Assembly: GCA_947167105.1 (NCBI GenBank)
Contig: CAMVGU010000009.1
Location: 1-64,000 of the forward strand
DNA: 64,000 bases
Source of the DNA: an uncultured Selenomonas sp.
GTDB lineage: Bacteria > Bacillota > Negativicutes > Selenomonadales > Selenomonadaceae
Reading direction: 5' to 3'
A program made the position numbers and the translations under genes. The notes beneath the pieces are model-generated. The model was not told where the DNA came from. It saw nothing but the letters and a program-made list of their open reading frames with translations, and did no database searches. The number at the start of each line of letters is the position of its first letter. Within the stretch, counting starts at the first letter, position 1. Positions 62,920-64,000 of the stretch are shown here, piece after piece.

Positions 62920-63375
62920 TTAATCTTTTCTCAGCTTATTCAGCAGTGCTGTGCAGCCTTTTTCAATATCACGGTAGGTAGCGTCAAAATCGTCTGTATA
63001 CCACGGATCGGCAACCTCTCTGTTTTCGCCTGCAATCTCCATCAGCAGATGTACCTTGCCGTGGGGATCGCCCTTGGTCAAGCGTTCCAAATCGCGCATA
63101 TTTTCCCTGTCCATGCCGATGATGAGGTCATAACTTTCATAATCGGCATAGGTGATTTGCCTGGCCTTTCTTGGAGTGAAGGGTATACCCACTTCCCGCA
63201 GTTTGTTTTTGGTTCCGTAGTAAGTGTCGGAGCCTAGTTCATCCCTGCGGCAAGCCTTCGAGTCTACTGTAATTGCATTTTCTAAACCGGCACGATGTAC
63301 CATGTCCTTCATAACAAATTCGGCCATAGGTGAACGGCAAATATTGCCGTGGCAAACGAAAAGTATCTTAGTCAT
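62920..63375 (-). CDS. Low-molecular-weight protein tyrosine phosphatase
   Basis: A 151-aa phosphatase with the CxxxxxRS P-loop CHGNICRS (Cys8, Arg14) at the N-terminus, a Ser-Lys-Ala segment and the general-acid Asp in DPWYTDDF. The fold is that of LMW-PTP. Substrates may be tyrosine-phosphorylated proteins or sugar-phosphate-amine adducts made by the neighbouring kinase. AAGGAGAAT site before ATG on the minus strand. Stops of the two genes are one base apart. Confidence 0.93.
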   Translation of the reverse strand: MTKILFVCHGNICRSPMAEFVMKDMVHRAGLENAITVDSKACRRDELGSDTYYGTKNKLREVGIPFTPRKARQITYADYESYDLIIGMDRENMRDLERLTKGDPHGKVHLLMEIAGENREVADPWYTDDFDATYRDIEKGCTALLNKLRKD

Positions 63376-63782
63376 AGCGATTCTCCTTCCAGATATGCTC
63401 CGATACGCCGTGAAATGCCGCGTTATGTCGACCTCGCCAGAGGCATATCTGAATTGTCGGAAAGTGTAGAAGTGGCATAATAGGGCAAATCAGGGCATAT
63501 TAAGTCCCTCAAAAGTAGTAAAAACGTAGTAGGAATGGGGGTGTTTTACTACTCTCGCAAGCCCCTGAAAATGTCGGCGGCAAACGTACACTTTCCTTAT
63601 CATAGCATGGGAGGACGGGAAACTCAACATTATGGACGGGATACCGAAAGCAAAAGAGGAAACAGCCTACCATGCGGCGAATTGTACATGGGGAAAAGTT
63701 TCGTTCGGAATCACAAATGCGTTATCCGTCATCCTGGAGTTAAGCATTGACTCAATGACGGCTGTGAAAGCGGGGCTAGGGC
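63376..63782. other. 407-bp intergenic region with nested inverted repeats
   Basis: No convincing gene. It holds a 9-bp inverted repeat CAGATATGC (63390-63398) and GCATATCTG (63443-63451), a 10-bp pair GGAAAGTGTA (63459-63468) and TACACTTTCC (63587-63596), and between the latter a hairpin AGTAGTAAAAAC/GTTTTACTACT (63515-63553, one bulge). A small open frame from 63632 to beyond 63783 overlaps the next gene in another frame. This may be the edge of an accessory island: a recombination site or a regulatory zone. Confidence 0.5.
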
Positions 63783-64000
63783 GTGAGGTCATACGAAGAA
63801 TTGCAACAGGAAATTCAACGGCTTTCTGCCGAAAATCTTCGACTGAAAGGTTTACTCACGGCCCATGGCATATCATGGCAATCGGAATGCGCGTCGCTCC
63901 CGCCTGTGGACATTGCCATGGAGAAGGAACGTCGCGTTGCGCTGTTCATGAGGCTGTTCTGCGCCAGGAAGGATTTCTATGCCGAAAGATGGGAGGGCAG
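63783..64000 (+). CDS. TOTE conflict-system primase-domain protein, N-terminus only (cut by window)
   Basis: The first 72 codons read VRSYEELQQEIQRLSAEN, then LRLKGLLTAHGI, a linker, and EKERRVALFMRLFCARKD followed by FYAERWEG. The Glu/Leu-rich coiled start and the (K)ALFxxLFxxRxDxYAxRWE block match the entry of TOTE conflict-system proteins, which carry an archaeo-eukaryotic primase (AEP) domain and often a DEAD/DEAH helicase and nuclease parts further on. Those parts, if present, are outside the window. GTG at 63783 is the first start after an in-frame TAG; the ribosome site is weak (AGGG). Function inferred from the family: defence or element-to-element conflict. Confidence 0.72.
   Translation, partial: MRSYEELQQEIQRLSAENLRLKGLLTAHGISWQSECASLPPVDIAMEKERRVALFMRLFCARKDFYAERWEG

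Follow-up and report, generated by a model that had tools for sequence, protein, structure and literature searches.

What kind of protein begins at the right-hand edge of this stretch of DNA, and is it part of a TOTE conflict system, as a preliminary description proposed? The stretch (the window) comprises positions 1-64000 of contig C9 (97,287 bp), part of a 3.15-Mb draft genome whose nearest named relative is Selenomonas ruminantium. An open reading frame with a GTG start occupies 63783..64000 on the forward strand, remains open at the window's right edge and reads MRSYEELQQEIQRLSAENLRLKGLLTAHGISWQSECASLPPVDIAMEKERRVALFMRLFCARKDFYAERWEG. These are the first 72 codons of what we call the primase-helicase gene, as indicated by the reading frame itself, by Pfam and by whole-protein relatives; the rest of the gene lies outside the window. 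Read onward, the frame does not close early but runs to C9:66656 plus a stop codon, giving a complete protein of 958 amino acids and bearing out the proposal of a gene start at this edge. Our best explanation, to which we give about even weight, takes the product to be a self-contained primase-polymerase/helicase belonging to the AEP-TOTE family and most likely acting as a stand-alone effector of defence against phages or plasmids.

The protein is built, in order, from a short coiled coil, a four-Cys motif, an AEP primase-polymerase, an XPB-like SF2 helicase and a PLD-fold domain. Pfam analysis of the full protein identified AEP-TOTE (PF22548) at residues 51-290 (3e-82; 276.1 bits against a cut-off of 27), a match that spans C9:63933-64652 and of which the beginning, from residue 51 on, falls within the window (63933..64000, +). 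ResIII was detected at residues 435-591 (8e-22), while Helicase_C (residues 665-768; 7e-5) and PLDc_2 (residues 832-950; 0.0013, 19 of 27 bits) stayed below their cut-offs; in several relatives PLDc_2 rises above it, reaching 5.6e-14. The preliminary description had predicted an AEP primase/helicase with a nuclease domain from the 72 visible residues, and AEP-TOTE, SF2 helicase and PLD-fold domains are indeed all found in the full protein. On the visible residues alone the AEP-TOTE match is below the curated cut-off of 27 (E = 0.0025, 17.9 bits), which makes that early domain call good but fragile. Matches of the window piece to Herpes_BLRF2, Vsr and RBD-FIP, likewise below cut-off, were set aside, the whole protein giving them no support.

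An AlphaFold2 model of the protein, built from 25 relatives, has a mean pLDDT of 84. The short N-terminal coiled coil that had been proposed is present in this model as a single helix at residues 2-27 (63786..63863, +; EELQQEIQRLSAENLRLKGLL). Residues 46-299 resemble the primase-polymerase domain of the CRISPR-associated PrimPol (CAPP) of Marinitoga, the closest solved relative (Z 24.4, 2.7 A over 209 residues), and residues about 332-800 resemble XPB (Z 25.8 over 382 residues, 8.1 A overall). Compared with the XPB-Bax1-DNA complex, the helicase part of the model fits at 3.9 A across 388 residues. Similarly, a sequence-profile search of the PDB returned XPB/TFIIH as the best helicase matches, XPB-Bax1 complexes included. 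The tail modelled alone reaches a pLDDT of 90.5 and aligns with the PLD domain of SauUSI (Z 15.1, 2.4 A, 139 residues) and with Salmonella Nuc (Z 14.1), so that the model predicts a PLD fold there. As a separate observation, a 64-bp segment on another contig (G000:C26:420-483; L007), located before the hairpin CTCCCGCTTCTAAAGCGGGAG, matches the gene's coiled-coil start at 89% identity and contains an in-frame stop; it is perhaps the remnant of a second copy.

Conservation of individual residues was counted in 85 relatives. The AEP catalytic motif (DxD, SxH-type and third Asp) is intact in the window protein as D150, D152, H191 and D265, the first three being conserved in 85/85 relatives and D265 in 80/85. 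In the alignment to 7nqd, D150 and D152 correspond to the Asp pair of Marinitoga CAPP, a proven DNA polymerase whose Asp-pair double mutant loses polymerase activity (PMC8211822). The SF2 residues K463, D561, E562 and H564 (D561-E562-x-H564), R765 and R768 are likewise found in 85/85, as are the cysteines of the four-Cys motif (C83, C91, C101 and C104).

The PLD tail departs from this pattern. The canonical catalytic motif HxK(x4)D was not found in it; the corresponding residues read NCHFAVMD, with N908 and H910 replacing the His/Lys pair and D915 retained. A tree of close relatives, computed without the PLD columns, splits into two clades. The His/Lys pair occurs in 0/34 rows of the clade that holds the window protein and in 33/51 rows of the sister clade. 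Of the own-clade rows, 32 cover the Lys position, and 23 of these have a His there. Five changes on the tree account for the pattern. Judging from these sequences, the own-clade tail is probably not an ordinary PLD nuclease and may have an inactive or a variant active site. Because the pair is replaced clade-wide while all core polymerase and motor residues are kept, the clade could form a distinct class of defence protein that makes and remodels DNA but does not cut it, or could instead be a PLD nuclease whose active site is a variant one, although we advance this idea tentatively and consider it doubtful.

How such a protein might act can be sketched from its parts. It may self-associate through the coiled coil, the PLD fold or both. 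At a fork, end or lesion in the invader's genome, the XPB-like motor would open or remodel the DNA, exposing a strand on which the primase-polymerase would then make or extend DNA. In the window's own clade the PLD fold might serve mainly in DNA binding or dimerisation, while the sister-clade PLD domain probably cuts. The net effect would most likely be interference with phage or plasmid replication.

TOTE systems are named for TPR, OB, TBP and Effector (PMC12458937, and Aravind et al. 2022 cited there). The window protein resembles them in carrying the AEP domain that Pfam names after TOTE, a name implying that the domain is the effector of TOTE operons. The other components are another matter. 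A search with the PF00352 profile found no TBP in this genome, nor in any of the bacterial carriers of a relative (37/37); the one archaeal carrier has TBP, as is normal for archaea, and since the control was thus positive only in archaea, a divergent bacterial TBP could be missed by this profile. No TPR-OB gene is adjacent to the primase-helicase gene, which is flanked by a low-molecular-weight protein-tyrosine-phosphatase (LMW-PTP) gene and an endonuclease IV gene, and no neighbour recurs as a conserved partner across 79 loci of relatives. With TBP not found and TPR-OB not adjacent, the locus fails the definition of a TOTE system despite its AEP-TOTE domain. The protein could be the effector of a true TOTE system if its TPR-OB and TBP partners lay at other loci or had diverged too far to be found, but we regard this as very improbable. 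The earlier observation was correct and its reading right at the level of domains; at the level of the system it was wrong or unproved.

The protein is better described as a stand-alone, non-CRISPR protein of the CAPP_A-helicase type, the commonest architecture among CRISPR-unlinked relatives according to Zabrady et al. 2021 (PMC8211822; example RHW43474). Like these, it fuses a CAPP-type PrimPol to a helicase, with an AEP fold close to that of Marinitoga CAPP (Z 24). PADLOC reports a PrimPol match (7e-77), and the NCBIfam model CAPP A1 matches at 5e-20, under its own cut-off. No Cas1 was found in the genome, and none lies beside the primase-helicase gene. The window protein further differs in its PLD tail, of which the available text of PMC8211822 describes no counterpart, and it is without the N-terminal TPR of Marinitoga CAPP. 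SauUSI, an ATP-dependent type IV restriction endonuclease (PDB 7clg), also has its SF2 helicase and its PLD nuclease fold on a single polypeptide; it is the structure nearest to the PLD tail, and its helicase matches in sequence at 1e-10. However, its domain order is reversed relative to that of the window protein, which adds a primase and replaces the PLD His/Lys pair. The protein thus belongs to a widespread, already named family, and the kind of system is not new.

The helicase matches raise a second alternative, that the protein is an enzyme of DNA repair or damage tolerance, pairing an XPB-like helicase with a repriming PrimPol by analogy with archaeal excision repair, in which XPB works with the nuclease Bax1. 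XPB from that complex is the nearest helicase fold, and there too a motor is paired with a nuclease, although in the window protein the motor is fused to a primase-polymerase and a PLD fold. Endonuclease IV is the next gene, converging on the primase-helicase gene and the only copy found in the genome, but it is not adjacent in the sister species. In another genus the primase-helicase gene follows priA by 12 bp and directly precedes a DNA-alkylation-repair-like gene (named by eye). Against a repair role stand the patchy distribution of the gene and the lack of a conserved repair neighbour in the 79 loci, and we consider this reading unlikely, though a serious rival.

The family is patchily distributed. 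Among 380 genomes of the class, 19 have an AEP-TOTE-family gene scoring over the cut-off, and hundreds of relatives occur in Clostridia, Bacteroidota, Desulfobacterota-type bacteria, Chloroflexi and at least one archaeon. The nearest relatives of the window protein are those of other selenomonads, and its clade takes in the full-length copies of selenomonads of its own genus and of one further genus. Plasmid relatives also exist (matches H13-H24) in Rhodobacterales and others, for example NZ_CP139712.1:22821-25262, and are labelled in RefSeq as DEAD/DEAH box helicase family protein. The best of them are about 800 amino acids long, have no PLD tail and lie beside tyrosine recombinases.

Neighbouring genes of relatives include several conflict genes. 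The commonest is a Schlafen-AlbA_2 protein (7/79 loci), and AbiEi/AbiEii, type I restriction subunit R, Fic and a YhcG-type nuclease are rarer neighbours in other genomes. In four genomes a Schlafen-AlbA_2/HATPase/HTH-type gene adjoins the primase-helicase gene, the spacing ranging from an overlap to a gap of about 110 bp (L064 438-1799, L068 773-2107, L136 2-1486 and L043 10327-11739; Pfam was run on L068 and L043 only), which suggests that the two genes form a unit in some lineages.

A defence role is thus offered on the basis of the patchy accessory distribution, the plasmid relatives and some conflict-gene neighbours. Several points weigh against it. No neighbour family occurs in more than 7/79 loci, and the neighbour counts are raw. 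The PrimPol that PADLOC matches is a CRISPR-associated one, although no cas1 was found in the genome. The priA and DNA-alkylation-repair-like neighbours in relatives mean that repair fits as well. Further, the literature searched yielded no phage-defence test of the primase-helicase-PLD architecture, and queries combining AEP, PLD, helicase and defence returned only unrelated virus papers.

The plasmid relatives bear on a third alternative, in which the protein serves mobile elements themselves, in replication, recombination or stabilisation, rather than defence. The recombinases beside these relatives and their lack of a PLD tail favour it, and non-CRISPR CAPP relatives are found mainly in mobile elements according to PMC8211822. 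Phage records match only the helicase half, and none reaches 80% coverage of the protein; a phage origin was rejected, and the absence of any phage record covering the whole protein also counts against service to mobile elements. Nor did we notice a replication gene, whether an initiator, a relaxase or another, next to the primase-helicase gene. In favour of such service, a candidate island boundary lies just upstream, and the primase-helicase gene comes first within it.

The preliminary description had placed the gene beyond a run of inverted repeats and read it as part of an inserted island. The run of inverted repeats proved weak: the repeat finder gave none of note upstream, where only a 9-bp pair is visible (GTAGTAAAA at 63515-63523 and TTTTACTAC at 63544-63552), and inverted repeats were rejected as island ends. 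The significant repeat is direct. Its first copy (63345..63646, unstranded), a candidate island boundary, covers the 5' end of the LMW-PTP gene and the region upstream of it, and its second copy lies at C9:92869-93170. The copies share 93% identity across 303 bp, the rightmost 190 bp or so without a difference, and enclose 29.5 kb. Both begin with the LMW-PTP 5' end and contain the candidate attachment core CAAAAGTAGTAAAAACGTAGTAGGAAT (63510..63536, unstranded), identical in the two. The LMW-PTP gene itself (62920..63375, -), an open reading frame with the CHGNICRS signature whose 5' end is the integration site, is conserved in 6/6 genomes of the genus. A Tn916-type integrase is encoded between the repeats (C9:88233-89414).

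Two sister species were informative about this site. One has a 24-kb island at the same place upstream of LMW-PTP, flanked by an exact 25-bp repeat, CAAAAGTTGTAAAAAAGTTGTAAAT, equivalent to the core, and by a 48-bp repeat of the LMW-PTP start; its integrase, directly beside the phosphatase gene, is 52% identical to that of the window's contig. In another (G003) the core occurs just once beside LMW-PTP, an empty site. Islands with Tn916-type integrases have an integration hotspot in this genus at the LMW-PTP 5' end (window 63345-63646; L174 2131-2289 and 26462-26596, the latter in L175), with cargo differing by species, and we infer that the island excises. Two other candidate empty sites were discarded. 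One was defined gene by gene, as LMW-PTP followed by a nucleoside-deoxyribosyltransferase-like gene, the latter having no full-length match in other genomes of the genus; the other was the sfsA of contig C66, which is 89% identical over 282 bp only and lies at a different locus.

The proposal of an inserted island therefore stands as regards the boundary, which the direct repeats, the integrase and the use of the same site in a sister species make real. It is doubtful that the primase-helicase gene was recently inserted with the island, because its GC content (0.529) is near that of the host (0.547), its nearest relatives are selenomonads, and it has another conserved place in two sister species. 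There it is away from the hotspot, preceded by sfsA and followed by a conserved EamA-like gene; at the DNA level the stretch is 81% identical across 4.1 kb, and a third species does not have it. We conclude that the primase-helicase gene is a lineage-resident accessory gene that now stands at an island edge and looks inherited, not plainly the cargo of a recent insertion. The sfsA/EamA-side location and the near-host GC likewise speak against service to mobile elements, which we judge unlikely overall, though a serious competitor to the stand-alone defence effector that we favour.

The DNA between the direct repeats is composite. A solitary island holding the primase-helicase gene alone was rejected, as the repeats enclose many genes of differing GC: endonuclease IV has a GC content of 0.547 and a DISARM/Dpd-like operon one of 0.445. 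Bordering this AT-rich block are a truncated sfsA (first 99 residues; C9:67610-67921, L005:4311-4622) and, after it, a 35-bp inverted repeat; the second sfsA, on contig C66, is frameshifted. The operon, outside the window (C9:69076-85736; L005:5777 to L006:2437), is large and mixes DISARM-like and Dpd-like proteins, namely DrmA, a separate DrmB, DpdE, DpdF and DpdH, together with three smaller proteins without a family (148, 272 and 224 amino acids). It looks like one uncharacterised DISARM-like/Dpd-like class mentioned in PMC12458937. A UvrD/GajB-like helicase gene follows it (C9:85766-87904; L006:2467-4605), the N-terminal 90 residues of whose product have, by eye, a RelE-type look, as in ARMADA type II.

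These results confirm a domain call that was made correctly from 72 residues, and they provide, in the att-like site at the LMW-PTP gene, a usable island marker for related genomes. They also add a stand-alone, partner-free branch to a primase-helicase family that has a name but has hardly been characterised. Of modest interest is the clade-wide replacement of the PLD catalytic pair: as the polymerase and helicase residues remain in place, whether these proteins make DNA or cut it becomes a testable question.
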